In this document: one piece after another, positions 19,579-50,404 of the stretch
How positions within the stretch are numbered: the first letter of the stretch is position 1
Layout: each line of letters opens with the position of its first letter
Origin: Gracilibacillus lacisalsi DSM 19029
GTDB lineage: Bacteria > Bacillota > Bacilli > Bacillales > Amphibacillaceae
DNA: 64,000 bases
Reading direction: 5' to 3'
Assembly (NCBI RefSeq): GCF_000377765.1
Contig: NZ_KB898678.1
Location: forward strand, 1 to 64,000
Notes under the pieces: generated by a model
What the model saw: only the letters and a program-made list of their open reading frames with translations
Databases searched by the model: none
Told to the model about the DNA's origin: nothing
Made by a program: the position numbers and the translations under genes

Positions 19579-19599
19579 AAGGAAAAGAGGTGTTCACCT

Positions 19600-33367: not shown

Positions 33368-34324
33368 TCAGTTCACGACAACCCATACGCTACTTGTATC
33401 AGGCGTTTCACCTTGTGTCCACCAGAGTGCTTCATATAAGACACCTTGATACGTAACACGGTCTCCACCATTATATGCAGTGGTGCTGGACCATTCTGGA
33501 GCTTCAGGTTGTTCAGGTGTTTCAGGTGCATCCCCGTTTACCAATTCCCATACGTCTGATTCACCAGGAGTATCTCCTTGTGTCCACCACTTTGCTTGAT
33601 AAACGTTTCCATTATAAGAAACTCGATCCCCATTTAAATAAACAGCATTTGGATCCCACTCCGGTGTGTCGCCAGGTTCTTCCGGATCAGGTTCTCCTGG
33701 TTCCCCCGGATCTCCAGGCTCATATTCCCCATCAAAGTTAGCATCAATTACTTGATAGAAACCATTTGCTGTATCCGCTACTTCCCAATACGCAAGAATA
33801 ACATGATATCCTGACCTTTGAGGAATTTCACAATCATGTGTTGTCGTGAAATCAGGACGTTGCCCATTATCATTATGCGTACAGAATAATTCAAAATCTG
33901 CTCGTTCTAACGGAGAATTAGGATCCCAGCCTTCTTTTGTAATATAGTAATCCCAATTGTAGGAAGCATGTGCAGCAGTTAATGTCCATTCAAAGGTAAA
34001 GGCGCCACTTGACATCGGAACTTTTGCCCAACGAGTTTCTGATTGTTCGTCTAATTTAGGAAAGACACCTCCAGCACTGGCAATCTGCCCATCTGGTACC
34101 CCTGCTTCAGGAAAGTTACCAGGTCCCTCAAGGCTTTGTGGTTCATAAACTACAGCCCCACAATCAACATTAACGCCATCTGCGCATAATAGAGCTCTAC
34201 TTTCGGGATTACTAACATATCCATGTGCTGAAACAATTGTAGTAAAAGCTAACGACATAAAAAATAATCCAACAACCATCAATCCAACTTTTAGATAACT
34301 TAGATTATTCATATTTACACTCAT
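33368..34324 (-). CDS. Secreted AA10 lytic polysaccharide monooxygenase with two chitin-binding modules
   Basis: A 318-residue secreted copper LPMO that oxidatively cleaves crystalline chitin. The signal peptide ends VSA|HGYV, so the mature protein starts with His34, the first histidine-brace ligand; the second is His119 in TLTAAHASYNWDYYIT. EPQSLEGP, LDEQSETRW and GYHVILAYW agree with chitin-active AA10 enzymes. A Pro/Glu/Gly linker leads to two CBM5/12 repeats (about 225-268 and 275-318) with YNGNVYQAKWWTQG and YQGVLYEALWWTQG. Start ATG 34324 follows AAGGAGGAGAAG. An operator-like AGGTATAGACTTCT precedes it. C1-oxidising activity is likely by family but not proven by sequence. Confidence 0.95.
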   Translation of the reverse strand: MSVNMNNLSYLKVGLMVVGLFFMSLAFTTIVSAHGYVSNPESRALLCADGVNVDCGAVVYEPQSLEGPGNFPEAGVPDGQIASAGGVFPKLDEQSETRWAKVPMSSGAFTFEWTLTAAHASYNWDYYITKEGWDPNSPLERADFELFCTHNDNGQRPDFTTTHDCEIPQRSGYHVILAYWEVADTANGFYQVIDANFDGEYEPGDPGEPGEPDPEEPGDTPEWDPNAVYLNGDRVSYNGNVYQAKWWTQGDTPGESDVWELVNGDAPETPEQPEAPEWSSTTAYNGGDRVTYQGVLYEALWWTQGETPDTSSVWVVVN

Positions 34325-34350
34325 CTCTTCTCCTCCTTGATTATAATACT

Positions 34351-34367
34351 AGAAGTCTATACCTATT
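34351..34367 (-). promoter_or_regulatory. NagR-type operator-like site before LPMO gene
   Basis: On the minus strand this reads AATAGGTATAGACTTCT, immediately upstream of a TATAAT -10 box (34341-34346 region). It shares GGTATAGAC with the nag sites. Confidence 0.6.
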
Positions 34368-34548
34368 GAAGTAAAAGATATTAGTAAGAGCCCCAATAAT
34401 TTCGGATTCCACCTCCTTTTCTACCACAACAAAGAAAACCCTTACATTTTATATCATAGAGGATGAAAGTGTTTAATTCAATAGCAGTGGAGGAAATTAG
34501 TAAAAAAATCCTATAAATGAAAAACTGAACAAAAATGCAAAAAAAGGA

Positions 34549-34584
34549 TTGCATTACACTCTAGAAATTGGTATAGTTATCTTA
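34549..34584 (+). promoter_or_regulatory. Promoter of the LplBCA-type importer with operator-like word
   Basis: TTGCAT (34549-34554) and TATAGT (34572-34577) are 17 bases apart. The -10 box is part of GGTATAGTTATCTTA, nearly the same as GGTATAGTCATCTTA before the chitinase gene, so a shared regulator is possible. The similarity could also simply reflect the -10 element. Confidence 0.5.
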
Positions 34585-34606
34585 ACCAATAACAAAACTT
34601 ATCAAC

Positions 34607-34657
34607 GAGAACATAATCATCTTAGAAATGTCTAGGAGTTTATGTTCTCCTTTTTTT
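34607..34657 (+). terminator. Terminator hairpin in the importer leader
   Basis: GAGAACATAA (34607-34616) pairs with TTATGTTCTC (34640-34649), followed by seven T. It lies between the promoter and the first gene (start 34739), so it must be bypassed, by antitermination or attenuation, or a second promoter exists downstream. Confidence 0.7.
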
Positions 34658-34738
34658 ATGTGTAACAATTGCCATGACTTTGCCAGGAACGTGAAGTACA
34701 GTCGTTTTTGATTTCAAAAAATGGGGGTAAGGAGACAA

Positions 34739-35698
34739 ATGAATGTGAAATCCGAGGTTATCACAAAAAGTATAAAAACTAATAAGAAGAAAAGCTTTTT
34801 CAAAAGATACTTTGGCCAACTTGACTTACAAATGATGGTTATTCCTGGTCTGGTCTTTATTTTTATTTTTAACTATATACCGATGTATGGCGTGTTAATG
34901 GCTTTTCAGAATTATGACATATTTGAGGGAATGATGGGGAGCACATGGGTTGGACTAGAGCATTTTAAAATGTTTTTTTCTGATCCAAGGTTTCTGGAAA
35001 TCATGCGAAATACCTTTGTTATTAGTGGATTGAAGATTTTAATATGTTTCCCGGCACCAATCATGCTAGCTCTTATGTTAAATGAGGTAAAAAACATGGC
35101 CTTCAAAAGAACGGTACAAACCATCACTTATTTACCACACTTTTTGTCATGGGTGATCGTTGCTGGATTTGCGATGTCGATATTATCAACTGACAATGGC
35201 AGTTTAAATTTTGCATTAGAAAAAATAGGGTTGATTGATGAACCGATTAGTTTTCTAGCAATCCCTGAATACTTTTGGACGATTATCGTTTCTACTAATC
35301 TATGGAAATCGATTGGTTTTGCTTCGATTGTTTATATTGCGGCAATTGCAGGAGTGGATCCGCAGCTTTATGAAGCAGCAGCATTAGATGGGGCAAGTCG
35401 ATTTAAGCAGATCTTTTTAATAACGATTCCCTCGATTATGCCTATCATTGTTATCTTTTTTATTTTAGAAGTTGGAAATCTATTAAATGCTGGTTTCGAA
35501 GATTTATTAATTTTAGGAGATTCGGCAATATTACGGTCTGTTTCTGATGTCATTGATACCTATGTTTACCGGGTAGGGATTGGAAGCGGAAGGTATTCCT
35601 ATGCAACAGCAATTGGATTATTTAAAGCGATTATAAGTGTTGGTTTGTTAACGTTGGCAAATTATATCGCTCGCAGGAATGGCAATAGTCTTTGGTAA
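34739..35698 (+). CDS. ABC transporter permease, LplB type
   Basis: A 319-residue permease of the LplB/YtcP-like CUT1 branch used for complex oligosaccharides, with the characteristic start of the core domain MVIPGLVFIFIFNYIPMYGVLMAFQNYD and about six membrane spans. The EAA loop is QLYEAAALDGASRFKQIFLITIPSI. I choose ATG 34739, nine bases after TAAGGAG; the ATG at 34721 overlaps that site. It opens a four-gene operon (two permeases, binding protein, YesL-like protein) placed between the LPMO and the glucosaminate operon, so an oxidised or longer chito-oligosaccharide is a reasonable cargo by context. Confidence 0.87.
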   Translation: MNVKSEVITKSIKTNKKKSFFKRYFGQLDLQMMVIPGLVFIFIFNYIPMYGVLMAFQNYDIFEGMMGSTWVGLEHFKMFFSDPRFLEIMRNTFVISGLKILICFPAPIMLALMLNEVKNMAFKRTVQTITYLPHFLSWVIVAGFAMSILSTDNGSLNFALEKIGLIDEPISFLAIPEYFWTIIVSTNLWKSIGFASIVYIAAIAGVDPQLYEAAALDGASRFKQIFLITIPSIMPIIVIFFILEVGNLLNAGFEDLLILGDSAILRSVSDVIDTYVYRVGIGSGRYSYATAIGLFKAIISVGLLTLANYIARRNGNSLW

Positions 35699-35722
35699 AG
35701 AGAGAGAAGAGGTGAAGAACTA

Positions 35723-36619
35723 ATGATAAAACCGACATTTGGTGACCGAATCATGATAGTCAGCATATATATTTTTCTGATTTTATTAGGCTTTGTAACG
35801 TTCTATCCATTTTGGAATTCGTTAGTGATTTCCTTTAATAGTGGGCAGGACACTATGCTAGGCGGTGTAACTTTTTGGCCAAGAGATTTCACATTGGAAA
35901 ATTATCAAATCGTTTTCCAGGATAAAAGATTATTGAATGCCTTTTTGATCTCTGTGTTAAGGACGGTAATTGGTACTTTTCTATCTGTTCTAGTTACTGC
36001 ATTACTGGCGTATGGCTTGTCCAAAAAAGAATTGATTGGTAGAAAATTTTTTATGATTTTCTGTTTGTTAACCATGTTCTTTAGTGGCGGATTAATCCCT
36101 ACATTTCTACTAGTTAGAGGAATAGGGCTAATGGACTCCTTTTGGGCGATGATTATCCCAACGCTTGTATTAGTGTGGAATATGATTATTTTCCGTACCT
36201 TCTTTCAACAATTGCCTAAAGGGCTGGAGGAATCAGCTAAGATAGATGGATGTGGCAATTGGCAAATTTTCTTCCGGATTGTGCTACCTTTGTCAGGACC
36301 TGTTATCGCAACGTTATCCCTGTTTACAGCAGTGTTCCATTGGAATGATTGGTTTTTCCCTAGTATTTATATCTCTTCAGAGAACTTGATACCAATTCAG
36401 ACTTTACTTCGACAAGTATTGAATTCCAATACTGTAACATCACAAATGAGTCAGCTTGATGCGGGAGCTTTAGCGCACATGTCCAATGTAGCGAAAGTTA
36501 CTGGAAAATCTTTATCAATGGCTACCATGATGGTAGCAACGATTCCAATTATACTAGTTTATCCATTTGTCCAAAAACACTTTGTAAAAGGGGTACTAAT
36601 CGGATCATTGAAAGAGTAG
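35723..36619 (+). CDS. ABC transporter permease, LplC type
   Basis: A 298-residue LplC-like permease with six membrane spans and the EAA loop GLEESAKIDGCGNWQIFFRIVLPLS. The long loop after the fifth span (LRQVLNSNTVTSQMSQLDAGALAHMSNV) and C-terminus HFVKGVLIGSLKE are usual in this subfamily. Start ATG 35723 follows AGAGGTGAAG, 24 bases after the lplB-type stop. It works with the LplB-type permease and the large binding protein that follows. Confidence 0.88.
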   Translation: MIKPTFGDRIMIVSIYIFLILLGFVTFYPFWNSLVISFNSGQDTMLGGVTFWPRDFTLENYQIVFQDKRLLNAFLISVLRTVIGTFLSVLVTALLAYGLSKKELIGRKFFMIFCLLTMFFSGGLIPTFLLVRGIGLMDSFWAMIIPTLVLVWNMIIFRTFFQQLPKGLEESAKIDGCGNWQIFFRIVLPLSGPVIATLSLFTAVFHWNDWFFPSIYISSENLIPIQTLLRQVLNSNTVTSQMSQLDAGALAHMSNVAKVTGKSLSMATMMVATIPIILVYPFVQKHFVKGVLIGSLKE

Positions 36620-36685
36620 TGCAATGACATTGGTTTAAGGCTACATGCTTTAAATAATAATTAATTGAAAAAGGGGTTGTGTGCA

Positions 36686-38344
36686 ATGAGGAAAAAGAGT
36701 TTTCATTGGTATCTATTACTTGTATTTCTATTAACTGTTGGCATTGTTGCTGGATGTTCTGATAGTGATACCACTGAAAGTGTAGAAGAAGAGACAAATG
36801 ATTCTGAAACAAACGATGAAGCAGGTGAGGAGGATGACGTATTTGTATTAGGTGAGGAGCCACTGGAAATTTCAATGTTTGGCAATTATGACTGGTACAC
36901 CATGCCTGGATGGGGGGATGATGTAGCAACAGCTTGGATAAAAGAAAATAAAAAAGTAGATATAACTGCGATTGACGGTGGTGGGAATGCTGAACAAAAA
37001 TTAACCACGATGATTGCAGGCGATGAGCTGCCTGATTTTATTTGGACAGATCGTGGGGCAGCTGTTGAAAGATTACGGGAAGGTGGAGCACTTGTCCCAT
37101 TGGATCCTTATCTTGATAAGTATACAAATTTAAGAGACTGGTTCGGTGAAGAAGGTATTAATATGCTTCGTTCAGATGACGGCAAGTTATATCAATTTCC
37201 AAACTGGTATAATTCGAGCCCATTTGGCAATGCTGGGTATGTCGTAAATAAAGGAATTTATGAGGATTTAGGATCTCCTCCATTAGAGACTACAGAAGAT
37301 TTATATCAATACTTACAATTAGTAAAAGACAAATATCCAGATGTTATTCCGTTTGAAACAGGTATAGATGGTCAAGGGATTAATGTTTTATATTCTGCTT
37401 TTGCCGAGGGAGAATCTCCGGCTAATATTAACAATGTAGCAGTCCCGAACGGAGATCAGTTAACGTCGATTTTTACGGATGGGAATTATATTGAATCTTT
37501 ACAATATGTTAGTAAATTGTTCCGTGAAGGATTGCTTACTCAAGACGCTTTAACACAAGATCAGGATATGGTTATTGAGAAAGTCACATCAGGTAACATA
37601 GCTGTTTTCGCATCTGCAAGTCCAACTGATCATGCCAGAACTGGTCATTATAATCTTTTGGAAGAAGATCCTGATGGAGGATATTTCATGATTCATCCCA
37701 TTCATAAAGAAGGATTAGATTCAAATGAAGTTTACCCAGGTTCTTATAATATGATGGGGTGGAATGTAAGTGTTATCACTAAAGGTGCGGAAGATCCCGA
37801 GAAGGTTTTTGCTTTCTTGGATTGGTTAACAGGACCTGAAGGGCAGGCTTCACTCATATTTGGTCCTGAGGGAGAATATTGGGATGGATTTGATGAAGAA
37901 GGATTCCCACAATTTACGGAAAAATACTATGAGGACCCTGAAGGTTTAGCGAAAGTGGAAGAAGATACAGCGAATTTTCAATGGAATGGGAATTCTAATT
38001 TCTTAGATACAGCGAAAGCTAAATTTGAAGAAACATTACCTGAGGAACATCGTAATTGGACGACGCACTGGCAAAATACAATTACATGGGATACCCAATA
38101 TGATGCAACACAATATTTGAATATTAGCCCGATTCCCGAAAGTGAGGAAGGGATTATCCAGCAACGTGTAGGAGAAATTTTTGAGGAGGCTCGTGCCAAA
38201 GCAGTTTATGCACAAAGCGATGAAGAAGTCGAGCAGATAATGGCCGAAGCTGAAACAGCGGCTCAGGATGTAGGTTATCAACAACTCCTTGAATTTCAAA
38301 CTGAAAAATGGCAAGAGAATCTAGCGATTATGGCTGGGCAATAA
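36686..38344 (+). CDS. ABC transporter substrate-binding lipoprotein, LplA type
   Basis: A large 552-residue solute-binding lipoprotein typical of the LplA/YtcQ class. The signal peptide ends IVAGC, with Cys24 as lipid site, followed by an acidic linker (about 25-55). I choose ATG 36686 behind AAAAGGGG; a TTG at 36665 would lengthen the signal peptide without need. The mature part has LPDFIWTDRGAAVERLREGGALVPLDPY and YNMMGWNVSVITKGAEDPEKVFAFLDW. Large LplA-like proteins bind oligosaccharides, and the genomic setting suggests chitin-derived ones. Confidence 0.86.
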   Translation: MRKKSFHWYLLLVFLLTVGIVAGCSDSDTTESVEEETNDSETNDEAGEEDDVFVLGEEPLEISMFGNYDWYTMPGWGDDVATAWIKENKKVDITAIDGGGNAEQKLTTMIAGDELPDFIWTDRGAAVERLREGGALVPLDPYLDKYTNLRDWFGEEGINMLRSDDGKLYQFPNWYNSSPFGNAGYVVNKGIYEDLGSPPLETTEDLYQYLQLVKDKYPDVIPFETGIDGQGINVLYSAFAEGESPANINNVAVPNGDQLTSIFTDGNYIESLQYVSKLFREGLLTQDALTQDQDMVIEKVTSGNIAVFASASPTDHARTGHYNLLEEDPDGGYFMIHPIHKEGLDSNEVYPGSYNMMGWNVSVITKGAEDPEKVFAFLDWLTGPEGQASLIFGPEGEYWDGFDEEGFPQFTEKYYEDPEGLAKVEEDTANFQWNGNSNFLDTAKAKFEETLPEEHRNWTTHWQNTITWDTQYDATQYLNISPIPESEEGIIQQRVGEIFEEARAKAVYAQSDEEVEQIMAEAETAAQDVGYQQLLEFQTEKWQENLAIMAGQ

Positions 38345-38373
38345 ATGATTAAATGGAAGGGGAGTAAATCATC

Positions 38374-39102
38374 ATGGAATCGATGGGAATGATCGGTAGA
38401 TTTTATCAAATATCGTATTGGATGATGAAATTACTACTGGTAAATATGATATGGGTCATTTTTAATTTTCCAATCGTGTATATGGTACTGGCTACATTAA
38501 CAGTAAACAGTATGGATGAACTGTATTTGCTTCTTATCATCATCATACTGTTACTCCCCTTTATTTTCTTTCCCGCCACTAATGCAATGTTTGCGGTAGT
38601 AAGAAGAGGAGTGTTATATAAGAAGGATGATAGATTACTATCTTATTTCTGGAAGACATATAAACAAAATTATGCTCGCAGTCTTGTAGGTGGGATAACG
38701 ATTACTGTTCTTTGGTTTGTTTGGATTTACAATTATCAATTATCAGGGATTGAGTTAGGTTCTGGATTGTCTTATATTTACCTCGCTCTTACTATGTTTT
38801 TATTAGCATTTACGAGTTATTTCTTTGCGGATAGTGTACATTATCACCTTACATTTATTGCATCCATTAAAAAATCTATCATAATGAGTATAGGTTTTCC
38901 GCATTATACCATTTCTATAATTGGTGTTTCAGGTGTTTGCCTATATATTTTATACTGGCTACATCCCGTATTTCTTGTGTTGTATGGTGGGATTTTGCCT
39001 GCAATTATCTGTTTTCTAGGTTATTATTTCATTTACCTAAGAGCAAAAAGAGTTAAGGAAACGAATGAAAGTAAAAAACAATGGAACCCCCAAAAAGCAT
39101 AA
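38374..39102 (+). CDS. YesL-like membrane protein (DUF624)
   Basis: A 242-residue membrane protein with about five hydrophobic spans, beginning FYQISYWMMKLLLVNMIWVIFNFP, the typical YesL/DUF624 start. Members accompany LplABC-type importers in Bacillus (the yesLMN region of the rhamnogalacturonan cluster), but their role is not established; assistance to the transporter or signalling is often supposed. Start ATG 38374 lies after AAGGGGAG. It is the last gene before a strong terminator. No enzymatic motif is visible. Confidence 0.82.
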   Translation: MESMGMIGRFYQISYWMMKLLLVNMIWVIFNFPIVYMVLATLTVNSMDELYLLLIIIILLLPFIFFPATNAMFAVVRRGVLYKKDDRLLSYFWKTYKQNYARSLVGGITITVLWFVWIYNYQLSGIELGSGLSYIYLALTMFLLAFTSYFFADSVHYHLTFIASIKKSIIMSIGFPHYTISIIGVSGVCLYILYWLHPVFLVLYGGILPAIICFLGYYFIYLRAKRVKETNESKKQWNPQKA

Positions 39103-39132
39103 GCGGCCAGCTCATTGGTCGCTTATGCTTTT
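39092..39132 (+). terminator. Terminator of the LplBCA-type importer operon
   Basis: AAAAGCATAAGCGGCCA pairs with TGGTCGCTTATGCTTTT (one G-T pair), with a T-rich 3' end. It overlaps the end of the YesL-like gene. Confidence 0.85.
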
Positions 39133-39409
39133 GTGTTTGTGAAAATATATCACTTGGTATCATAATTATTAGTAATGATAATGCCGTATCTTGGACTTTC
39201 ACAGAATTAATAATTCGAGTTGCCAGGTCTACCATTGATGTAGCGCATGCATAAAACGTAGACTGCCCACTACACTTTACAATTTTCTATTTGTCTACTG
39301 TTCCTTTGCTCTTACCTAAAATCCTTAGTTCATTAACAAACTAAATCTTTTGTGATTGAATTGAAGAAAGAAGCAGAAAATATCACCAATTACATCAACT
39401 TCACCAACT
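39133..39409. other. Gene-free gap between convergent operons
   Basis: AT-rich spacer in which I see no gene, operator-like word or repeat. Short frames on both strands lack ribosome sites. Confidence 0.6.
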
Positions 39410-39450
39410 GCAACTTTCGGCAACATTTCACTGCTGTTGCCGAAAGTTGC
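39410..39450 (-). other. Perfect 15-bp stem-loop after the kinase gene
   Basis: GCAACTTTCGGCAAC (39410-39424) and GTTGCCGAAAGTTGC (39436-39450) are exact inverted repeats around 11 bases, two bases beyond the kinase stop codon. On the minus strand there is no T tract after it, so it may protect the mRNA 3' end or be a weak terminator. Confidence 0.7.
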
Positions 39451-39452
39451 TA

Positions 39453-40469
39453 TCATCTAATTACATCACGGATTTGGTGGTTGCTTGCTTGTAAAATCTC
39501 TTGCTTGGTAGATAGCGGTGTATCACCTACAATGGTATGTGCTAGCATACATGAATTGGTCGCAAACTGAATGATTTGTTGTGGTTGATAGTCTTGGAGT
39601 TTTCCGTGAATAATGCCTGTTGCAAAGGCATCACCAGCTCCGATTCGGTCCAAAACACGAAATTGTTCTTGCTTTGCATAATGAAATTTCCCTGCCTGAT
39701 ATAAATAGCCTTTGATAGAATGGTAGTCATCATGATGAATTGTTCGATGGGTACCTGCTATCATAGATATGTTATAATCCTCTGCCACTTTTGGAATCAG
39801 TTCCTCTAACTGTTTTTCACGTTCTTGATGCTGACAGTGGTATTCTAATGTGTAAAGTGCATCTTTCTCATTCATCATCACCATATCAGCGATGTTTAGT
39901 AGTTGGTCATAGTATGGTTTTGCTTTTAGATGGCCGTTTTCTCCCCATAGAGAAGGACGGTAATTGCAATCAAAGAGAACAGTACCGCCCTGCTCCTTGA
40001 CTAAATTAGCTAACCGTATCATTTGCTGTCGAACATTTTCATTCATAGCTAGTGTTATCCCACATACATGTAATAAGTCGATCTCTTCAGCGATTTTATG
40101 AAATGAATAGTTGGATTTACTTGCGGTATTAAAGCTACTTTCCATACGATTGGAGTAAGTTACACGACTTGGCCGAGCACCAATTCCATTCTCTAAAAAA
40201 TACATTCCGATATAATTACCTGATCGGGCGATATAATCGGTCGAAATGCCGAGCTTTTGTAAATGAGAAATAGCAGCATCACCAATTGGATTAGCTGGTA
40301 GTGTTGAAATGAGTGCACTTTCATATCCTAATTTTTCGATGCTGCCAGTAATATTTACCCCTGTACCCGAAAACGAATATTGTAAAGAATTGGCTTGTGT
40401 CAGCAGTAGATTCTCAGGCACTTGCATACGCATCATTACTTCCCCAAAGGCTGCGATTTTCTTAGACAT
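39453..40469 (-). CDS. kdgK: PfkB-family sugar kinase, 2-keto-3-deoxygluconate kinase type
   Basis: A 338-residue ribokinase/PfkB-fold kinase, starting MSKKIAAFGEVMMRMQVPE and carrying the C-terminal signature RIGAGDAFATGIIHG with the catalytic Asp. The N-terminal GEVMMR, SGTGVNI and YFLENGIGARPSRVTY segments are those of KDG kinases. It would phosphorylate 2-keto-3-deoxygluconate to KDPG. ATG 40469 is chosen; TTG 40478 is an alternative. The start overlaps the end of the aldolase gene, so the two are coupled. Glucosaminate itself as kinase substrate remains possible. Confidence 0.83.
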   Translation of the reverse strand: MSKKIAAFGEVMMRMQVPENLLLTQANSLQYSFSGTGVNITGSIEKLGYESALISTLPANPIGDAAISHLQKLGISTDYIARSGNYIGMYFLENGIGARPSRVTYSNRMESSFNTASKSNYSFHKIAEEIDLLHVCGITLAMNENVRQQMIRLANLVKEQGGTVLFDCNYRPSLWGENGHLKAKPYYDQLLNIADMVMMNEKDALYTLEYHCQHQEREKQLEELIPKVAEDYNISMIAGTHRTIHHDDYHSIKGYLYQAGKFHYAKQEQFRVLDRIGAGDAFATGIIHGKLQDYQPQQIIQFATNSCMLAHTIVGDTPLSTKQEILQASNHQIRDVIR

Positions 40470-41214
40470 ATTGATCAACCAGCTTTTTTACTTGTTGTAG
40501 TAAGAAGGTTACATCATCAACGTTAGTCTTGCCAGTTTCTTTATCAATAATCGATGAATAAACATGGGGAATGATCTGCGGTACATTGGCTGATAAGGCA
40601 ATATCCAATATTTCAGTGAAGTTTGTTTTATCTATACCGCCAGTAGGCTCTAGTGCAAAGTTTTCTTCACCACACGCTTTGGCGACGGCTTTGTACTCAT
40701 CTATTGTCGCTAAACCTTGCATTGGAAAATATTTAAGTGCCTTTCCTCCCATATCACGAACTAATGAAATAGCAGATTTGACAGGAACCATTGCTTTTTC
40801 CGCATGTTCACTAATAGGACCTGTTGAAATATTGACGTAACCAATCTTCCCAGAAGGTGTTACTAAGCTATTAATCCAACAATCTTGCTTATCCGTATTT
40901 GCTTTCGTGTGTCCGACATATGGAAATACTTGATTTATATGTTTGCCCGTATATTGTTTTGCTATCTCAGCAACTACTGGTGCTTGCCTACTATCACCTG
41001 CTCCGAGTCCGATCGAGACTGCATCCTCTGTTGTTGCACCATACGCTTTCATAGCCTGTATAGCTTCATCTGTTGTTCGGTAATCCTTGGACAGAACACC
41101 AACTAGTACATGTTTTTCAGCAGCTTGATAGATATCTTTCGCGTTATCGATACTGTTGGCTAATACATTTAAAGCAACCCGATTTTGATAAAAATGATTA
41201 AAAATAGAAGCCAT
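40462..41214 (-). CDS. dgaF: DgaF-family 2-keto-3-deoxy-6-phosphogluconate aldolase
   Basis: A 250-residue aldolase of the DgaF family (D-glucosaminate pathway), which splits KDPG into pyruvate and glyceraldehyde-3-phosphate. The protein runs NRVALNVLANSIDNAKDIYQAAEKHVLVGVLSK-like, with QVFPYVGHTKAN, NISTGPISEHA, the presumed Schiff-base Lys161 in GGKALKYFPMQGL, and ALEPTGGIDKTNF. It overlaps the ammonia-lyase stop by one base (TAATG) and the kinase start by eight, indicating tight translational coupling. It acts in the cytoplasm. Confidence 0.88.
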   Translation of the reverse strand: MASIFNHFYQNRVALNVLANSIDNAKDIYQAAEKHVLVGVLSKDYRTTDEAIQAMKAYGATTEDAVSIGLGAGDSRQAPVVAEIAKQYTGKHINQVFPYVGHTKANTDKQDCWINSLVTPSGKIGYVNISTGPISEHAEKAMVPVKSAISLVRDMGGKALKYFPMQGLATIDEYKAVAKACGEENFALEPTGGIDKTNFTEILDIALSANVPQIIPHVYSSIIDKETGKTNVDDVTFLLQQVKKLVDQYV

Positions 41215-42320
41215 TATGAACTACCTCCTAAAATCTCCTGGATTCTTTGAACAATAATCTCGATATCATTTCCCTGTAATGGGCGGGGATCAATATCGAA
41301 AAAGCCTTGCTTTACTCCATAATCTCTAGTGTAGATAGCGATCTTTCCGATTCTTAAAGCAGTAGCTAATTCTTCTGCACTCATGTTTGCTTGGATGGGG
41401 TTAACCTTGATTCTTCCTCGATAAATCTCTCTTCCCGCTTCATCTTGGACAATATCAACGGTTACACCATCCAATTCATTTAATACATGTAAGGCTTGAA
41501 GGCTATCTCGCTCTTCTCGACTATGATCTTCTTTGTTAAAAAAATGATCAATTGCCTGAAGTAACCCGAAAATTGCTTCTTTTCCTACTTTCATACTTCT
41601 GCCGATTCCATATAATTGGACTTTTACCCAATCAATGTATTGTTTTTTTCCTGCTACAATCCCCGAGGTTGGCCCTTCGATAGCTTTCGAACCACTGAAG
41701 ACAACAAGATCGGAACAGGATATATATTTTTGCAGATCTTCTTCAGCAGCAGCATCAATAATGAAGGGAATGCCATATTTTTTGGCAACGTCCCATGCAT
41801 CCTCAACCGTTATCATGTTTTTTTGAACGGCATGATGAGATTGAACATATAAAATAGCACACGTATTGTCGTTTATCGTTTCTTCTAAATGTTCCTTCCT
41901 ACCTTCATTCGCATAGCCGGCTTCTACTAGTCTTCCACCTCCTAAATGAATCATGGTTTCTATTGGAGCTCCGTATTGAACATTGTGTCCTTTAAATAAG
42001 ATCACTTCATTTTCTGGAATGTCTTTTTGGTGTAGCTTTAAACTATCAAACTTATTTCCCTTTGTTACGAGAGCTGCAATTGACATTGCGATTCCACTAG
42101 AAGCAGAATTAACGACGACCGCATCTTCACTGTCTAATTTATCCGCTATATAGCTCCCTGCTTTATCTACTAAATCAGCTATTTCGATATAGTTTTGTGC
42201 TCCTATTTTCATTGCGTCCATAACACTGTCATTTGGTGCCGATACCCCTAAAATGCTCATTCTGCCACTTGCATTAATGACTCGCTTTAACCCGTATTTA
42301 GCATGTAATGAGTTCGCCAT
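41214..42320 (-). CDS. dgaE: DgaE-family PLP-dependent ammonia lyase (D-glucosaminate type)
   Basis: A 368-residue SelA-like PLP enzyme. DgaE converts D-glucosaminate-6-phosphate to KDPG and ammonia. Visible are the KRVINASGRMSILG start, NSASSGIAMSIAALV, IIDAAAEEDLQKY (cofactor Asp) and the PLP-lysine region VVFSGSKAIEGPTSGI with Lys212. Start ATG follows AAGGAGTGGTAAAAG, and it overlaps the amidohydrolase gene by 23 bases. With a KDG kinase next door and no glucosaminate PTS, its substrate here may be unphosphorylated glucosaminate. This is inference; a galactosaminate or other amino-aldonate is an alternative. Confidence 0.86.
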   Translation of the reverse strand: MANSLHAKYGLKRVINASGRMSILGVSAPNDSVMDAMKIGAQNYIEIADLVDKAGSYIADKLDSEDAVVVNSASSGIAMSIAALVTKGNKFDSLKLHQKDIPENEVILFKGHNVQYGAPIETMIHLGGGRLVEAGYANEGRKEHLEETINDNTCAILYVQSHHAVQKNMITVEDAWDVAKKYGIPFIIDAAAEEDLQKYISCSDLVVFSGSKAIEGPTSGIVAGKKQYIDWVKVQLYGIGRSMKVGKEAIFGLLQAIDHFFNKEDHSREERDSLQALHVLNELDGVTVDIVQDEAGREIYRGRIKVNPIQANMSAEELATALRIGKIAIYTRDYGVKQGFFDIDPRPLQGNDIEIIVQRIQEILGGSS

Positions 42321-43398
42321 CTTTTACCACTCCTTTAGGTACGATGATTTGATTGGTAATTCTCTCTTCTCCAACTGAATCAACTAAAACCGTTTTTTTA
42401 TTTTCCATCTTAAATATTGTCAAGTTAGCAATTTCACCTGCTGCACAGGTAGCTAACTCAGGCATTCCTATAGCTTGGGCAGGGTATATGGTTATGGCAT
42501 TGATGACTTGTTCCAAAGAGTAGCCAAGATAGAGAAATTTACTGGCTACATGAGCTAAGCTGTACACTGGACCATTCTGCCGATTCTTCCGGTAAATATC
42601 AGTACTGATCGAAAAAGGATAGATTTGATGCTTTTTGGCATACTCCGCAACTTGAAAGGAAAAGCTTGCACTGCCGTGGCCAACATCTAACAACACCCCA
42701 CGGTGGATTGCCTGTTGCAGTTCTTTTAGTGGATTACCATTCTGATCAAATAAATTATTGCTTTTCCCGTTTAGAAAATGTGTCACAATATCCTTTCGAT
42801 CTAGTAATCTTAAAATATCGTTAATAGCTGGCGGTGCTGAGCCAATATGTACCATTAATGGTAGGGAGGTAAGACGAGAAAATTTTTTGGCGATTTGTAA
42901 TGGGATAATGTTGTTGTCCTTTACCACACTGTTACTTATTCTAGCTTTAAGTCCAATGATTTTCTCGTGGTATTTAGCAATGGCATCTACCACTTTCTGT
43001 TCATCTATCCATTCCAGATTAGATAGTTCATCCATTCTTGTAAGGCCGATAGCTGAAATATTTAAAAACACATATAAATTTGTCTTATGTACCTTCTCAG
43101 CATCAAGGATATCGCTTACATTGTTTGCGCCACAACTTCCAGCGTCCACAATGGTTGTTACACCTTGTTTAACACCAATTTCATCTATTTCGTCTCCGTA
43201 TGGATATAATGCTTTATTTGCATGTACATGTAGATCAATCCACCCGCTCGACACATAACAGCCAGAATAATTGAGTTTTTCCTGCGCTATTCCTTTTCCA
43301 GCCTTGGTAATGTCAGCAATTCGACCATTTCTAATCACCATATCCACTTTCCGCCCAGTAGCGAATTTCACATTCTGTAGTACATACGAATATGTCAT
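42298..43398 (-). CDS. Amidohydrolase/deacetylase of the EF_0837 family
   Basis: A 366-residue amidohydrolase-superfamily metal enzyme that often travels with DgaE/DgaF-like genes. Metal motifs seen are DLHVHAN (His57, His59), VDAGSCGANN, the probable carbamylated lysine in IIGLKARIS, LMVHIGSAPP and the terminal FSISTDIY aspartate. I choose ATG 43398, eight bases past AAGGGGTG; GTG 43407 overlaps that site. First gene of the four-gene operon. By context it would deacetylate an N-acetyl-aldonate such as N-acetylglucosaminate. The substrate is inferred, since the family is annotated with broad dihydroorotase-like names. Confidence 0.82.
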   Translation of the reverse strand: MTYSYVLQNVKFATGRKVDMVIRNGRIADITKAGKGIAQEKLNYSGCYVSSGWIDLHVHANKALYPYGDEIDEIGVKQGVTTIVDAGSCGANNVSDILDAEKVHKTNLYVFLNISAIGLTRMDELSNLEWIDEQKVVDAIAKYHEKIIGLKARISNSVVKDNNIIPLQIAKKFSRLTSLPLMVHIGSAPPAINDILRLLDRKDIVTHFLNGKSNNLFDQNGNPLKELQQAIHRGVLLDVGHGSASFSFQVAEYAKKHQIYPFSISTDIYRKNRQNGPVYSLAHVASKFLYLGYSLEQVINAITIYPAQAIGMPELATCAAGEIANLTIFKMENKKTVLVDSVGEERITNQIIVPKGVVKDGELITC

Positions 43399-43436
43399 AT
43401 ATTTCACCCCTTATGATAAAAGAATATCAATTTTAA

Positions 43437-43452
43437 GTATAGATGTCTATAC
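43437..43452. promoter_or_regulatory. Palindromic operator-like site between amidohydrolase operon and sensor kinase
   Basis: GTATAGATGTCTATAC is a near-perfect palindrome of the GTATAGAC half-site. It stands 39 bases before the amidohydrolase start, in the divergent gap, and probably controls the glucosaminate-type operon. Confidence 0.6.
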
Positions 43453-43507
43453 ATTAGGTGGTGAATTTATAAATATTATCTGCTTGTTTGACGCAATTGA
43501 TATAGTA

Positions 43508-43570: not shown

Positions 43571-43587
43571 TATAGGAGGTGTGTAGC

Positions 43588-45303
43588 TTGTATAGATGGT
43601 TTAAAAAGTCGGTTCAGCATCAATTAATTGTATTTGTGTTGTTAGCTGTACTCATTCCAATTAGTTTGTTAGGTACTATTTCTTATTTCACAGCAAATCA
43701 TCTTGCGAAACAACGAGCAACGGAATCTGCCCAATCTTCCTTGGACCAGCTAGAAAAATCTCTTGAATTTATTGTGAATGATGTTGATAATATGTCAGTT
43801 TTTTTAATTGGAAATGAAGATGTGCAACAATATTTAAAAACAGAGAAAAACACGGTGCAACAAAGATGGAATATCTATGGTTTTTTATCTAATTTGACCT
43901 ATTCTAAATCCTATATTGCAAATATCTTAATTGAACCGCTCAATAAAAACCAGAATATTTCTACCCTTTCAACTTTATCTTCTAATACTGAATATAGCGT
44001 GAATCATAAACAGAACGTTATCAAAAGTTTTCGATATGAAAATGATGTCATTACTTTGCATCGCCCGATAAGAAGTACTGATGACTACCAACTAATTGGC
44101 TATTTGAACATTTATCTGGATCAACAAGTTATGGAAAAATATATACAAGCTGTAGATTTGGAGTGGGGTGGCACAACATATTTATTGAAGGATGATATCT
44201 TATTAGCTGCTGGTAATCGTTCCAATACTGATGTTCATCTGAAAGATTTATCTCAACGGTTAAAAGCAAATCAAAACCCATTAACAACAAAGATGGAGGG
44301 GATGGAGAACACAATTATATCTAGTAAAGTGCCAGAAGTTGATTGGGCATTAATTAGTGTCATCCCTACAAAGAAATTTACCGCTGAGAACCGAAAGTTT
44401 TTACAACTAACCTTGTTGGCAATTATTATCGCAATTCTTCTAGTCACGGCATTAGTGTTGTTTTTCGTTCGTAAAGTGATTGGACCTTTGTCGAAGTTAA
44501 CAGAAGTTATACAAACTTCTGATCCAACAGCTGGTTTGAAGTTGGTATCCTTACATTCAAGTGATGAGATTGGCTTATTATTGGATAGCTATAATAAATT
44601 GAATAAGCGAATTTATCATTTGCTGGATCAAATAAAAAGAAATGAAGCACGGAAGAGAGAAATAGATTTACAAGCCTTACAGGCGCAAATAAACCCGCAT
44701 TTCTTATACAATACATTAGCTTCGATTCACTGGATGGCACTAGTGAATCATGATATCAAGATTTCCAGAATGGTTTCTGCCTTGAGTAATTTTTTAAGAT
44801 ACAGTCTTAATAAAGGTAATGAATATTGCACGATAAAACAAGAGCTTGAGCATCTTGATAACTATGTGAGAATCCAACAATTACGATATCCTAATCTATT
44901 TCAATTGAACATAGATATTCCAAAAGAAGTGGAGGAATATTATATGCTGAAATTAGTATTACAACCTTTAATTGAAAATAGCATTATTCATGGATTATTG
45001 CCTAACGAAAACAAGCAAGGAAAAATCGATATAACAGGGTGTTGGGAGCAAGATAGTTTATGTATACATGTTCACGATAATGGAATCGGTATGTCAAAGG
45101 AAAAACTTAAAGAATTAAACGAGTGGTTCTTAATAGATGAAAAATTAGAAGAAGTGGTTGGAACAAGTTATGGTCTTCGAAATGTTAATTTAAGATTATC
45201 TATGCATTATGGCTCAACATCAAGGTTGACAATGAATAGTGAAAAAAATAAAGGAACAACTATTTCATTTGTTGTTCCGTTAGAAAAGAGGTTTATAAAA
45301 TGA
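43588..45303 (+). CDS. YesM-type membrane sensor histidine kinase
   Basis: A 571-residue sensor kinase with two membrane spans (about 12-35 and 270-295) enclosing an extracellular sensing domain, a HAMP linker, and the His_kinase domain with phosphoacceptor His371 in QAQINPHFLYNTLASIHWMA, followed by the ATPase (LVLQPLIENSIIHG, VHDNGIGMS, GLRNVNLRL). Start TTG 43588 lies eight bases after AGGAGG; GTG 43579 falls within that site. It pairs with the next gene by a four-base overlap. It probably senses an extracellular sugar linked to the importer and chitinase downstream. Confidence 0.9.
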   Translation: MYRWFKKSVQHQLIVFVLLAVLIPISLLGTISYFTANHLAKQRATESAQSSLDQLEKSLEFIVNDVDNMSVFLIGNEDVQQYLKTEKNTVQQRWNIYGFLSNLTYSKSYIANILIEPLNKNQNISTLSTLSSNTEYSVNHKQNVIKSFRYENDVITLHRPIRSTDDYQLIGYLNIYLDQQVMEKYIQAVDLEWGGTTYLLKDDILLAAGNRSNTDVHLKDLSQRLKANQNPLTTKMEGMENTIISSKVPEVDWALISVIPTKKFTAENRKFLQLTLLAIIIAILLVTALVLFFVRKVIGPLSKLTEVIQTSDPTAGLKLVSLHSSDEIGLLLDSYNKLNKRIYHLLDQIKRNEARKREIDLQALQAQINPHFLYNTLASIHWMALVNHDIKISRMVSALSNFLRYSLNKGNEYCTIKQELEHLDNYVRIQQLRYPNLFQLNIDIPKEVEEYYMLKLVLQPLIENSIIHGLLPNENKQGKIDITGCWEQDSLCIHVHDNGIGMSKEKLKELNEWFLIDEKLEEVVGTSYGLRNVNLRLSMHYGSTSRLTMNSEKNKGTTISFVVPLEKRFIK

Positions 45304-46838
45304 AAGTGTTAATTGTAGATGATGAGGTCATCATTCGAGAAGCTATTTCTCAAGTAGTACCGTGGGAAAAGTATGGCTATCAAATAATAGAACCAGCTGC
45401 CTCTGCTGAAGAAGCCATCCATAAGATTCAACAATATGCACCGGAAATTGTTTTAACAGATATTAAAATGGCAGGAAAAAGCGGACTTGAGTTAGCATCA
45501 GAAATTCAACAGCTACAATTACCAATAGAAGTAATAGTCTTAACAGGTTATGATGAATTTTCCTATGCCCAGAAGGCTATCCGTGAAGGTGTATGTGATT
45601 ATTTATTAAAAAATAGTGGTCCAGAAGAAATATTAAAAGCGGTTGAAAAAGCAAAAAAACGATTAGAAGCAAATGGAAGAAAGTTTCGTCAAGACAGAAC
45701 AGAATCACAGTTAACCCTATCCTATACTATTAACAAGTTATTAAATGGTGATGTCACGAAAGTAGAATTGAATCATCTCCATGATTTACTATCACCGACA
45801 GATCGTACATTTTATCAAATTATTATAATCGATAGATTAATAGACAATTCCGTAATACTAGAATGTGAGCAACTATGGAATCGTTATTTAAAAGGATGGT
45901 GGTTTCAATTAAATGGTCAAACATTTATTCTCACCTATAGATCTGCTGTTTACCAAGATGACTATATGATAAATATGGCTATTCAAAAACTAAATACTGT
46001 CTTAGATCATACATTTTTAATGGGAGTAGTAGTTGAAAAAATAAGTGATTTACCGCAGTCTTATGAAACAGCTCACGTTCTTTTAGGTTATCAGAATATA
46101 TTAAAAGATAGGCGTATGATTACTAGTCAAGACGTGCAAGACCGTAAAGGGATTTCCAAAGCAAAATTTATCCAAAAAAACGAAAACGACTTTATGAAAA
46201 GAATCAACAGTGGTAATGCAGCAGATCTAGAAAAATGGATGGAACAACTAGTGGAAAAAATGGTAAAAGATCCACATGCTACCCCGGAATCTATTCAGTT
46301 AGTGATCCAATCATTATATATTACCATGGTCAGGCTTATCCATCGGGTTGCCTTTGCGGTAGGTAGTGAAGTGGATGAATTACCTTCCCTTTTACCTGTT
46401 CATCAATGGCTGTCATTGCCTAAAGAATTTCTGATCCCGACGTTCACTAGAATGCTAGAATTATACCGCCAGTTAGTTAGTAGTGAAGGAGGATTTGTTG
46501 AAATTTCTATTCAATATATGGAAATGAATCTAGGCAATGCGATTTCTTTAAAAGAAGTTGCTCAATTTGTCAATGTACATCCCAACTATTTAAGTGACAT
46601 GCTACGAAAGCGAACAGGGAAATCTTATATGGAATTAATTACGGAATTACGTTTAAAAAAAGCAAAAGAGCTACTGGTGAATACTCCAGCTAAAATAAAA
46701 TCTATATCAGAACAAGTTGGCTATTCTGATTGGAAGTATTTTACTAGTCAATTCAAAAAGGAGACAGGACAAACCCCTTCACAATATAGAGAGCAAAAAA
46801 AGATGCTAGATGAAAAGAATACAAGCAGTTTTAAGTAA
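45300..46838 (+). CDS. YesN-type response regulator with AraC output domain
   Basis: A 512-residue response regulator: receiver domain with acidic pocket Asp7-Asp8 and phosphoacceptor Asp54 in EIVLTDIKMAG, a long middle linker, and an AraC-type double helix-turn-helix at about 405-505 (VHPNYLSDMLRKRTGKSYMELITELRLKKAKELL ... FKKETGQTPSQYR by segments). ATG 45300 overlaps the kinase stop codon (ATGA). Such YesN proteins activate neighbouring CUT1 importer genes when phosphorylated, so the ABC operon beginning 96 bases downstream is the expected target. Confidence 0.9.
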   Translation: MKVLIVDDEVIIREAISQVVPWEKYGYQIIEPAASAEEAIHKIQQYAPEIVLTDIKMAGKSGLELASEIQQLQLPIEVIVLTGYDEFSYAQKAIREGVCDYLLKNSGPEEILKAVEKAKKRLEANGRKFRQDRTESQLTLSYTINKLLNGDVTKVELNHLHDLLSPTDRTFYQIIIIDRLIDNSVILECEQLWNRYLKGWWFQLNGQTFILTYRSAVYQDDYMINMAIQKLNTVLDHTFLMGVVVEKISDLPQSYETAHVLLGYQNILKDRRMITSQDVQDRKGISKAKFIQKNENDFMKRINSGNAADLEKWMEQLVEKMVKDPHATPESIQLVIQSLYITMVRLIHRVAFAVGSEVDELPSLLPVHQWLSLPKEFLIPTFTRMLELYRQLVSSEGGFVEISIQYMEMNLGNAISLKEVAQFVNVHPNYLSDMLRKRTGKSYMELITELRLKKAKELLVNTPAKIKSISEQVGYSDWKYFTSQFKKETGQTPSQYREQKKMLDEKNTSSFK

Positions 46839-46934: not shown

Positions 46935-48260
46935 ATGAGGAACAACAATCTATTTTTATTTCTAATGGTGTTGATAAGTATTTGGTTAACTGCATGTAAC
47001 AGTGACCAAGCGGAAAATACAGCAAGTACCGAAGAATCGGCAGAAGCAACGGTGACCATTTGGCACAACTTTGCTGGAGATGATCTGAGAGCTAGGACAG
47101 TTCGTGACTTAATAGACCAATTTGATGAGGAGAATCCAAACATAAGTGTTGAATCTGAGGCAATTCCAGTAGATGGTTACCGTCAGCGAATTAGTACGGT
47201 AGCTGCAGCGCAGGAACTGCCAGATGTTTTTTTTACTTATGCCGGGAGTTTTACAGACCAATTTTATGATGGTGGATTGATTCAACCGATTACGCCGTTA
47301 ATGGAGGAACATAGTGATTGGGCTGATTCATTTTTGCCAACTGGTTTAGAAGCGTATGAATATGGAGACAATGGCGATATTTATTCAGCTCCAGTTGGTA
47401 TGTCATCCACTTCATATTTATTCTATAATAAGCAATTATTTGAGGCGAATGGAGTAGAAGTTCCAGAAACATGGGATCAATTTTTAGATGTGATTCATAC
47501 TTTTAATGACCAGGATATTACCCCTATTGCTATCGGGAATCAAGCACCTTGGGTGGCGCAATCTACAACCTTTGGAGCGATAGCTGACAGAGTAACAGGA
47601 ACGGAGTGGTTCATGAAGGCAGTTGAACAAGATGGTGCTTCATTCACAGATCCAGTATTTATTGAAGCCTTAGGTTATTTTAAACAGTTAGTAGATGCTG
47701 ATGCCTATCAAGAAGGAGCCAATAGTATAGATAATACACAAGCAGAGCAATATTTCGCACAAGGAAAAGCAGCGATGATGATCAATGGATCATGGACAGT
47801 AAGTAGCTTAGCAGCATCTGCATCCGAAGACGTGATTGAAAACATTGGAGTTACAGTTGTACCCAGTATAGAAGATGGCGAAGGAAGAGCCAATACGATA
47901 ACCGGTGGCCCAGGTGGTGGATTTGTGTTGAATAGTGAGGCAGAAGGTAACGTGAAAGAAGCAGGGTTAGAACTTATCTATGCTTTGAGTAATGAAGAGG
48001 CCCAAAAAGCCATTGCTGAAAGTGATTCTATGGTTATGTATGACGTAGATATTGATCGAGAAAATGTATCACCCTTATATTATGAGGCATTTAATTTGGT
48101 AAGAAGTGTAGAATTTGCACCAGTTTATGATTTGTATTTATCAGCAGCAGCAGGTGAAGCAATAAATAATGGTCTGCAAGAAATCATGCTAGGTGGAGAG
48201 TTGGAAACAGTTGCTGAAAAGGTGCAACAAGCGCAGGTTCAATCATTAGAAGAAGAGTAA
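46935..48260 (+). CDS. Sugar ABC transporter substrate-binding lipoprotein
   Basis: A 441-residue lipoprotein with signal peptide ending IWLTAC (Cys21) and a short acidic linker. The mature domain shows ATVTIWHNFAGDDLRARTVRDLIDQFDEENP-type family-1 binding-protein features by segments, PDVFFTYAGSFTDQF, and GKAAMMINGSWTVSSL. Start ATG 46935 is nine bases after AGGAGG. It follows a YesM/YesN pair and precedes two permeases and a chitinase gene, so a chito-oligosaccharide or GlcNAc ligand is plausible. The 110-base gap to the permease gene holds no clear terminator. Confidence 0.87.
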   Translation: MRNNNLFLFLMVLISIWLTACNSDQAENTASTEESAEATVTIWHNFAGDDLRARTVRDLIDQFDEENPNISVESEAIPVDGYRQRISTVAAAQELPDVFFTYAGSFTDQFYDGGLIQPITPLMEEHSDWADSFLPTGLEAYEYGDNGDIYSAPVGMSSTSYLFYNKQLFEANGVEVPETWDQFLDVIHTFNDQDITPIAIGNQAPWVAQSTTFGAIADRVTGTEWFMKAVEQDGASFTDPVFIEALGYFKQLVDADAYQEGANSIDNTQAEQYFAQGKAAMMINGSWTVSSLAASASEDVIENIGVTVVPSIEDGEGRANTITGGPGGGFVLNSEAEGNVKEAGLELIYALSNEEAQKAIAESDSMVMYDVDIDRENVSPLYYEAFNLVRSVEFAPVYDLYLSAAAGEAINNGLQEIMLGGELETVAEKVQQAQVQSLEEE

Positions 48261-48388
48261 AACATATGCTACTTATCCAAAAATATAAATAGAGGCTGCT
48301 ACATGTTATGTGATTGCTGCTGTTTAATGGTCTTACGTTAATAATAAATATTAAGAAGTTTTAGTTAGATTTGATAAGGGGGGATAGA

Positions 48389-49279: not shown

Positions 49280-49280
49280 G

Positions 49281-50159: not shown

Positions 50160-50231
50160 TTGATGTAATGAAAGCTGTTGGTAAAGAAAAAAAGTCTAGT
50201 AAAAAAAGGCTTTAATATATCTGATTCAATA

Positions 50232-50268
50232 AGGGTGATCGCTGAGTAAAAATGCTAGTGATCACCCT
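50232..50268 (+). terminator. Stem-loop after the importer operon
   Basis: AGGGTGATCGCT (50232-50243) and AGTGATCACCCT (50257-50268) form a 12-bp stem with one G-T pair. The T tract is poor, so termination may be partial. Confidence 0.55.
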
Positions 50269-50316
50269 GAAAAATATGTTGACATAAAATAATGAATTCT
50301 GTAATCTTGTATAGAG

Positions 50317-50362
50317 GTATAGTCATCTTATCTATTGTTCCTAAAATAGATTGCGCTTACAT
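50317..50362 (+). promoter_or_regulatory. Operator-like and cre-like sites before chitinase gene
   Basis: AGGTATAGTCATCTTA (50316-50331) resembles the GGTATAG sites, with TTGACA at 50279-50284 upstream as a likely -35. AGATTGCGCTTACA (50347-50360) matches 11 of 14 cre positions. Confidence 0.5.
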
Positions 50363-50404
50363 CGATATGTATTCTATTAATCTATTAAAGGAGTGGAGGA
50401 AAGA

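Follow-up and report, generated by a model that had tools for sequence, protein, structure and literature searches.

How might a Gram-positive bacterium recover the oxidised sugar ends that its own lytic polysaccharide monooxygenase (LPMO) would leave on chitin? The question is raised by a locus of Gracilibacillus lacisalsi DSM 19029 (family Amphibacillaceae) within a stretch of 64,000 nucleotides (contig NZ_KB898678.1, positions 1 to 64,000; here called the window), where the gene for an AA10-family LPMO lies near an ATP-binding cassette (ABC) importer (LplBCA) and an operon of four genes, encoding an EF_0837-type amidohydrolase, a DgaE-type ammonia lyase, a DgaF-type aldolase and a KdgK-type kinase. 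A sequence-only reading of positions 33368 to 43398 had proposed that these genes consume oxidised chitin, and all of its gene calls were recovered in place by profile searches. We consider it likely that a Gram-positive organism here carries a locus for oxidative chitin use, equivalent to the gammaproteobacterial Ong pathway but made up of non-orthologous enzymes. The nine-protein core from AA10 to EF_0837 comprises the LPMO (minus strand), LplB-LplC-LplA-DUF624 (34721-39102, plus strand) and KdgK-DgaF-DgaE-EF_0837 (39453-43407, minus strand), and it belongs to a chitin and N-acetylglucosamine (GlcNAc) region of about 42 kb, wider than the part first described (Table 1).

In the proposed pathway, the secreted LPMO would cleave chitin to produce C1-oxidised ends, present as the lactone and then as the aldonic acid. 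LplBCA, encoded divergently from the LPMO, would import the oxidised oligosaccharides, the beta-N-acetylhexosaminidase GH20C would strip GlcNAc units, and a linked lactonase would open the lactone to leave N-acetyl-D-glucosaminate (GlcNAc1A). The amidohydrolase would deacetylate GlcNAc1A to D-glucosaminate, and the DgaE-type enzyme, which is pyridoxal phosphate (PLP) dependent, would convert D-glucosaminate to 2-keto-3-deoxygluconate (KDG) and ammonia. The kinase would then phosphorylate KDG to 2-keto-3-deoxy-6-phosphogluconate (KDPG), which DgaF would split into pyruvate and glyceraldehyde-3-phosphate. NagR would repress the pathway jointly with the ordinary chitin and GlcNAc genes. All of the substrates, the transport specificity, the order of deamination before phosphorylation and the binding of NagR are predictions.

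The AA10 gene was the only one found in the G. lacisalsi genome by profile search. The closest solved chain to its product is LpmO10A (5wsz), the first residue of which aligns with H34 of the window protein; this fits the N-terminal histidine of a mature AA10 enzyme, with H119 as the second copper histidine. H34, H119 and F189, which we take to be the copper-site residues, were invariant among eight aligned sequences, and the enzyme is predicted to oxidise chitin at C1 outside the cell. Of 159 genomes from the family, exactly six contained an LplA orthologue (E < 1e-40), and in all six the importer was divergent from AA10. LplBCA may thus provide dedicated uptake of oxidised chito-oligosaccharides. 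No ATPase gene was present in the importer unit (34721-39102), and its DUF624 protein is presumably an accessory of Lpl-type importers. The predicted structure of LplA, with a predicted local distance difference test score (pLDDT) of 46, was too poor for use.

Successive genes of the convergent operon overlap by 23, 1 and 17 nt. From their sequences, the EF_0837-type enzyme is a probable N-acetylglucosaminate deacetylase, the DgaE-type enzyme a probable glucosaminate ammonia lyase and the PfkB-family kinase a probable KDG kinase. D-Aminoacylase chains aligned to the EF_0837 protein over residues 16 to 95 only (5e-6). Some EF_0837 relatives cleave acetyl groups off alpha-hydroxy acids; a literature search for known substrates of the family yielded nothing useful. 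The closest named DgaE, that of Gracilibacillus suaedae, was 98% identical, and the DgaF copy is an additional one, since two ordinary KDPG aldolases are encoded elsewhere in the genome.

Among the 159 family genomes, DgaE (TIGR01437 above cut-off) was found in 34, AA10 in 23 and EF_0837 above cut-off in 33. DgaE was present in 21 of the 23 AA10 genomes versus 13 of the 136 without AA10 (Fisher, P = 2e-15). Genome-level P values such as this are inflated by related species. Tests at and within the genus level were substituted for a tree-aware test. DgaE was found in 7/7 versus 8/39 genera (P = 1e-4), and permutation within genera gave a mean of 11.3 against the 21 observed (P of about 5e-5, as low as 20,000 shuffles allow). 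The uronate gene UxaC, taken as a control, occurred in 13/23 AA10 genomes versus 64/136 others (P = 0.5); across the same 159 genomes it showed no association with AA10 and none of significance with DgaE. The association also held among the 40 genomes with GH20C (21/21 with AA10 versus 9/19 without; P = 1e-4), from which G141 and G142, the AA10 genomes with no intact DgaE, drop out for want of GH20C. Elsewhere in the order, DgaE was present in 7 of 18 AA10 genomes versus 22 of 316 others (P = 3e-4); of the 348 genomes sampled, the 14 listed as belonging to the family were excluded, and further family members may be present among the unlisted genomes that had no match. Within the family, therefore, AA10 and DgaE are strongly linked; outside it the link is weaker. 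On these counts the operon was commoner with AA10 than without, an outcome favourable to the sequence-only reading, which had staked its proposal on this comparison. Of the 21 genomes that carry AA10 as well as DgaE, 8, from four genera, had the two genes at most 15 kb apart.

Regulatory sites formed a further line of evidence. A core, GGTATAGAC, was derived from k-mers common to 6 AA10/LplB and 7 EF_0837 promoter regions, those of the window included, and 4 exact copies occurred in the window versus 0.23 expected. The core resembles a published NagR operator, GTGGTCTAGACCAC, in the available text of PMC4333415; in that of PMC6141813, Bacillus thuringiensis has NagR sites such as agttgtatagacgtga, and its lpmo gene was up 25-fold in a nagR deletion. 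A matrix was then built from 28 of 43 listed sites from other genomes, with 11 weaker sites omitted as well as the 4 of G035, which hardly differs from the window. With this matrix, 7 window sites exceeded 12 bits versus 0.35 expected in random first-order sequence, a test that is not fully independent because the matrix includes a close relative (G030). All seven were intergenic, preceding the phosphotransferase system (PTS), the GH20C run, nagA, GH18, AA10, EF_0837 and LplB; the eighth-ranked match (11.4 bits) fell within a permease gene. Hence the LPMO, importer, operon and ordinary chitin and GlcNAc genes look to be under common NagR control. A site with at most one mismatch lay close upstream of 7 of the 25 family AA10 loci (window counted), namely six of the window genus and G143. 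Among 122 other EF_0837 promoters such a site was found in 6, five of them window-genus loci without a local GntR gene and one (L087) with it, while a GntR gene was nearby for 92 of the 122. The window lineage may thus have swapped the module's own GntR for NagR. YesM also has a weak NagR-type site (43553-43570, 8.5 bits) 17 bp upstream, adjacent to the strong site of EF_0837. In five loci of genus g24 (L092, L093, L095, L096 and L110), the AA10 genes share another upstream element, TTGTTTAGAC, distinct from the NagR-type site.

Since LPMO products are released as lactones, a lactonase linked to GH20C fits the proposed pathway, and an LPMO-made lactone would be the substrate of the window enzyme. 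The window lactonase scored 296 bits, and another copy, on contig C19, scored 441 bits. GH20C loci were drawn from 51 listed places, giving 38 loci besides the window, with the remaining 12 left out. A lactonase adjoined GH20C in 18 of the 38, all in module-bearing genomes, versus 20 loci without it, of which 11 came from genomes lacking both module and AA10 and 9 from module genomes, mostly as second copies; this contrast is biased because the 18 positives were fetched for nearness to DgaE or AA10 and the others for GH20C. Lactonase-linked GH20C proteins formed one clade (Shimodaira-Hasegawa-like approximate likelihood ratio test [SH-aLRT], 99), which includes two members without lactonase.

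If the pathway is accepted, its internal order has to be considered. On balance, deamination appears to come before phosphorylation, with an unphosphorylated substrate for DgaE. The kinase might instead phosphorylate glucosaminate or GlcNAc1A, standing in for a PTS, so that DgaE would act on the 6-phosphate as in Salmonella; we regard this order as possible yet doubtful. As far as the available text of PMC9529869 goes, docking on the Salmonella enzyme (DGL) placed the phosphate near R301, R332 and R346. These three arginines were invariant in 113 tabulated DgaE relatives, 104 with a kinase gene nearby and 9 with DUF4311 (11 rows with neither were left out). The trio therefore does not discriminate kinase-linked from DUF4311-linked enzymes and does not favour an unphosphorylated substrate, a point against the order that we prefer. 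Moreover, in the DgaE tree the enzyme of one kinase-free DUF4311-type cluster (L073) nests inside the kinase-linked group. Against phosphorylation first, the window DgaE scored below the cut-off of the glucosaminate-6-phosphate lyase model (400.5 versus 600 bits), and the surroundings of R332 differed, with YTRDY in nearly all kinase-linked enzymes (D333 in 102/104) and LRxH in five of nine DUF4311-linked ones, where the Salmonella enzyme has YARKY. The window kinase was nearest, among models, to KDG-type kinases, and the Ong KdgK is described in the accessible part of PMC9537276 as phosphorylating KDG well and GlcNAc1A poorly.

To place the window among its relatives, 57 stretches of 20 kb from the family and 20 of at most 20 kb from the order were compared, with open reading frames labelled by blastp against the window proteins and a few references. 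Gene counts around loci are lower bounds, because the longest-frame rule misses genes in some Paenibacillus-type contigs. In type A (the window, G035, G036 and G143), AA10 is divergent from LplB, and the four-gene operon is convergent with the importer or lies elsewhere; G026 and G030 are of type A with importer and operon apart, and in G023 AA10 adjoins the operon and the LplA-type importer is absent. In type B (nine loci, L082-L090), genes for GH20C, lactonase, solute-binding protein (SBP), LplB, LplC, DUF624, EF_0837, DgaE, DgaF, KdgK and GntR are clustered in varying order, sometimes with GH3. AA10 stands alongside in three of the nine (L086, L089 and L090), and three type B genomes (G054, G093 and G110) are without AA10. 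Two loci of genus g24 (L111 and L112) have the importer-GH20C-lactonase run with EF_0837 and GntR and no DgaE, DgaF or KdgK, the whole module being elsewhere (L059 and L061); this split pathway fits deacetylation directly after import.

The module also occurs in other settings. In type C, 12 of 56 module loci, it is joined by a GntP permease of the gluconate type (PF02447); examples are L058, L063, L069, L072, L142, L143, L147-L150, L153 and L159. Many Bacillales showed this pairing, among them Staphylococcus xylosus, S. nepalensis and Mammaliicoccus sciuri, and it is apparently an operon for (N-acetyl)glucosaminate scavenging. In type D (L154, L155, L156, L158, L073, L080, L081 and L091), presumably the Enterococcus type judging from the family name, EF_0837 and DgaE are clustered with DUF4311 proteins and a PRD regulator; L080 and L081 each carry a second DgaE. 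KdgK was present in 47 of 48 loci without DUF4311 (the exception, L140, lies at a contig end) versus 0 of 8 with it (P = 6e-9, related genomes being counted repeatedly). The absence of the kinase from these clusters would make sense if the DUF431x proteins phosphorylated the substrate during uptake. Among the best 80 of more than 80 named loci, with flanks of at most 10 kb, EF_0837 was found in at least 77, KdgK in at least 70, DgaF in at least 69, GntR in at least 61 and GntP in at least 22. The module, common in Bacillales without AA10 and frequently paired with a gluconate-type permease, is thus not restricted to products of the LPMO. It appears to serve (N-acetyl)glucosaminate in general and to have been recruited for chitin use. 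In the tree of 56 DgaE proteins, AA10-linked loci fell into two separated groups, the window genus (SH-aLRT, 97) with G143 near it, and type B.

It might be asked whether the window operon itself only scavenges monomeric (N-acetyl)glucosaminate from other organisms, its adjacency to the LPMO reflecting no more than a common chitin habitat and regulator. The module does accompany GntP, away from AA10, in Peribacillus, Paenibacillus and S. xylosus, for example, and it occurs in 13 family genomes that carry DgaE without AA10. Such a reading is improbable in our view, because the association of AA10 with DgaE holds among GH20C genomes, the LplA-type importer was seen solely beside AA10, and operator sites replace the local GntR gene in the window genus. 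We also hold, with moderate confidence, that a complete Gram-positive oxidative chitin pathway was built at least twice, when the general EF_0837-DgaE-DgaF-KdgK module was recruited to LPMO loci and given an importer for oxidised oligosaccharides and the GH20C-lactonase pair, and that Gracilibacillus traded its own GntR repressor for NagR, so that oxidised ends would be recovered together with GlcNAc.

Several observations weigh against the proposed pathway, in addition to the 13 genomes just mentioned, the inflated genome-level P values and the biased lactonase contrast. AA10 was near only 2 of the best 80 named module loci (those of G. suaedae and G. timonensis), and two of the 23 AA10 genomes were without a whole DgaE, G141 lacking the gene altogether and G142, 75% complete, carrying a broken copy. 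Outside the family, 11 of 18 AA10 genomes had no DgaE. Where both genes were present, they were far apart on one contig in 6 of 21 genomes and on separate contigs in 7. DgaF was missing by tblastn from two type B loci (L082 and L089), and 18 of the 25 family AA10 loci, including G026, G144 and three of the second clade (type B), lacked a NagR-type site of at most one mismatch close upstream. The AA10 genes of the five g24 loci named above stand in a common neighbourhood that is not chitin-like, a threonyl-tRNA synthetase gene adjoining in L092.

A very unlikely explanation is that the importer, kinase and aldolase serve glycosaminoglycan (GAG) or uronate disaccharides, from which KDG would arise. 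The nearest solved relative of LplA is Smon0123, a binder of unsaturated GAG disaccharides, but the kinship is weak (2e-13), the nine scanned core proteins included no unsaturated glucuronyl hydrolase, KduI or KduD, and this use would leave EF_0837 and DgaE without a role. AA10 and the NagR-type sites indicate chitin instead, and with UxaC unassociated with AA10 and not significantly associated with DgaE, GAG or uronate use was rejected. That unrelated catabolic units came to lie together by chance in a saccharolytic genome is scarcely credible, and this too was rejected: the window does contain other sugar loci (GH127 and alpha-galactosidase), but the importer is linked to AA10, AA10 and DgaE are linked in four genera and in two DgaE groups, and strong operator-like sites stand on chitin units only. 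Together, the co-occurrence with AA10, the linkage of importer and LPMO and the shared operator-like sites support the interpretation, first put forward from the sequence, that the locus acts on oxidised chitin.

Chitin genes abound in the remainder of the region (Table 1). A gene with a SIS domain accompanies nagA, nagB and nagR within 13189-16859, and the SBP and permease genes, GH20C, the PF10282 lactonase and a GNAT gene follow one another across 17330-23953. Inside the chitin region lies a block (24648-33258) with a LacI regulator, an ABC importer, a 796-aa protein and GH127, in which no NagR-type site above 12 bits was present. The 796-aa protein (28920-31310), encoded between the ABC importer and the GH127 gene, had a DUF5695 match below threshold only, and its predicted structure, with a pLDDT of 34, was too poor for use. 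UreF is encoded at the window edge (382-1080).

Table 1. Features of the chitin and GlcNAc region, in window coordinates
Feature	Position	Strand	Remarks
NagR (GntR/UTRA)	14105..14827	-	Relative of B. subtilis YvoA (2wv0), 1e-73
nagB and nagA	14940..16859	-	NagR-type site at 16916
ABC importer (SBP and two permeases)	17330..20484	+	Part of the GH20C-lactonase run; NagR-type site at 17269; permeases named by position and blastp
GH20C beta-N-acetylhexosaminidase	20513..22435	+	Lactonase-linked clade
PF10282 lactonase	22467..23495	+	Diverged second copy; candidate opener of LPMO-made lactone
AA10 chitin LPMO with two CBM5/12 modules	33368..34324	-	PF03067, 9.6e-44
NagR-type operator	34350..34367	-	35 bp upstream of LPMO gene; 22.6 bits; exact core
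Weaker NagR-type site	34566..34583	+	Upstream of importer operon; 14.4 bits
LplB-type ABC permease	34721..35698	+	BPD_transp_1
LplC-type ABC permease	35723..36619	+	BPD_transp_1
LplA-type SBP	36665..38344	+	SBP_bac_1
DUF624 membrane protein	38374..39102	+	
Terminator-like hairpin, 18 pairs	39093..39132		Between convergent importer unit and four-gene operon
PfkB sugar kinase	39453..40478	-	Best models, KDPG-aldolase/sugar-kinase fusion (236.6 vs 700) and KDG kinases, all below cut-off
DgaF-type KDPG aldolase	40462..41214	-	NF047796, 365 vs cut-off 300
DgaE-family PLP ammonia lyase	41214..42320	-	NF047797, 400.5 vs 600 bits
EF_0837-family amidohydrolase	42298..43407	-	TIGR03583, 470.6 bits vs cut-off 432; likely start ATG at 43398
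NagR-type operator	43440..43457	-	42 bp upstream of four-gene operon; 18.1 bits
YesM/YesN-type two-component system	43579..46838	+	
Second ABC importer and GH18	46935..52594	+	NagR-type site at 50312 ahead of GH18
PTS IIA, PRD antiterminator, GlcNAc PTS IIBC	52937..55806	+	Strongest NagR-type site, at 52600

The closest known parallel is the Ong pathway, known from Pseudoalteromonas prydzensis, other Gammaproteobacteria and one betaproteobacterium, in which, according to the available text of Jiang et al. (PMC9537276), deacetylation by OngB, deamination by the fold-type III enzyme OngC and then phosphorylation of KDG follow, all on unphosphorylated sugar; OngB is D-aminoacylase-like (PMC12017989, likewise as available). 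The window encodes a candidate enzyme for every one of these steps and shares with Ong the AA10 LPMO and a beta-hexosaminidase. On the proposed pathway, the two would also have in common GlcNAc1A as the key intermediate, deacetylation, deamination and KDPG, while the window kinase is a probable KDG kinase whose best model matches stayed below cut-off. The aldolase gene is inside the operon, as it is in the Ong clusters of Vibrio, Klebsiella and Serratia. However, the deacetylase is of the EF_0837 type (TIGR03583) rather than D-aminoacylase-like, and the deaminase is SelA/DgaE-like rather than of fold type III. PF14031, which we take to be the marker of the OngC group, had no match in the G. 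lacisalsi genome by profile search. Uptake is by an ABC importer in place of TonB receptors and a sodium-solute symporter (SSS), the one window SSS gene noted (58139-59566) being PanF, and the linked lactonase, Gram-positive host and NagR-type sites, where Ong has the RpiR-type OngR, set the window further apart. Membership of the Ong system was therefore rejected, its OngB, OngC, SSS symporter and RpiR-type repressor features being lacking.

The Salmonella Dga system (DgaE/DGL, 7lc0, and DgaF; available text of PMC9529869) resembles the window in its DgaE and DgaF homologues and, as predicted here, in its KDPG product, and the window aldolase exceeded the DgaF equivalog cut-off (NF047796, 365 versus 300). 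The window operon differs in having no DgaABCD PTS and in adding an amidohydrolase and a KDG-type kinase, and its DgaE scored under the DGL equivalog cut-off; membership was rejected on the four-gene operon without DgaABCD and the NF047797 result. The EF_0837-DUF4311-PRD clusters likewise have EF_0837, DgaE and DgaF homologues, but those examined have DUF431x membrane proteins and no kinase (0/8), whereas the window has a kinase and an ABC importer. The Bacillus NagR regulon (PMC4333415 and PMC6141813, in the text available) has a NagR relative, a similar operator core, and nagAB, GlcNAc PTS, chitinase and LPMO targets, to which the window apparently adds the importer and the catabolic operon for oxidised ends. 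Chitinase clusters of the archaeon Natrarchaeobius also contain a DGL homologue within chitin loci, predicted there to act after glucosamine oxidation, and the word "LPMO" is absent from the main text of that report (PMC12343721).

The listings from literature searches of open-licence papers included no Gram-positive pathway for oxidised chitin. If the proposed pathway is correct, Bacillota would recover oxidised chitin by convergent chemistry with non-orthologous enzymes, and EF_0837-type amidohydrolases and kinase-linked DgaE enzymes would gain a physiological substrate. The genes named here would be directly testable, including those of relatives whose genomes are deposited, among them G. 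suaedae, G. timonensis and Paraliobacillus salinarum.

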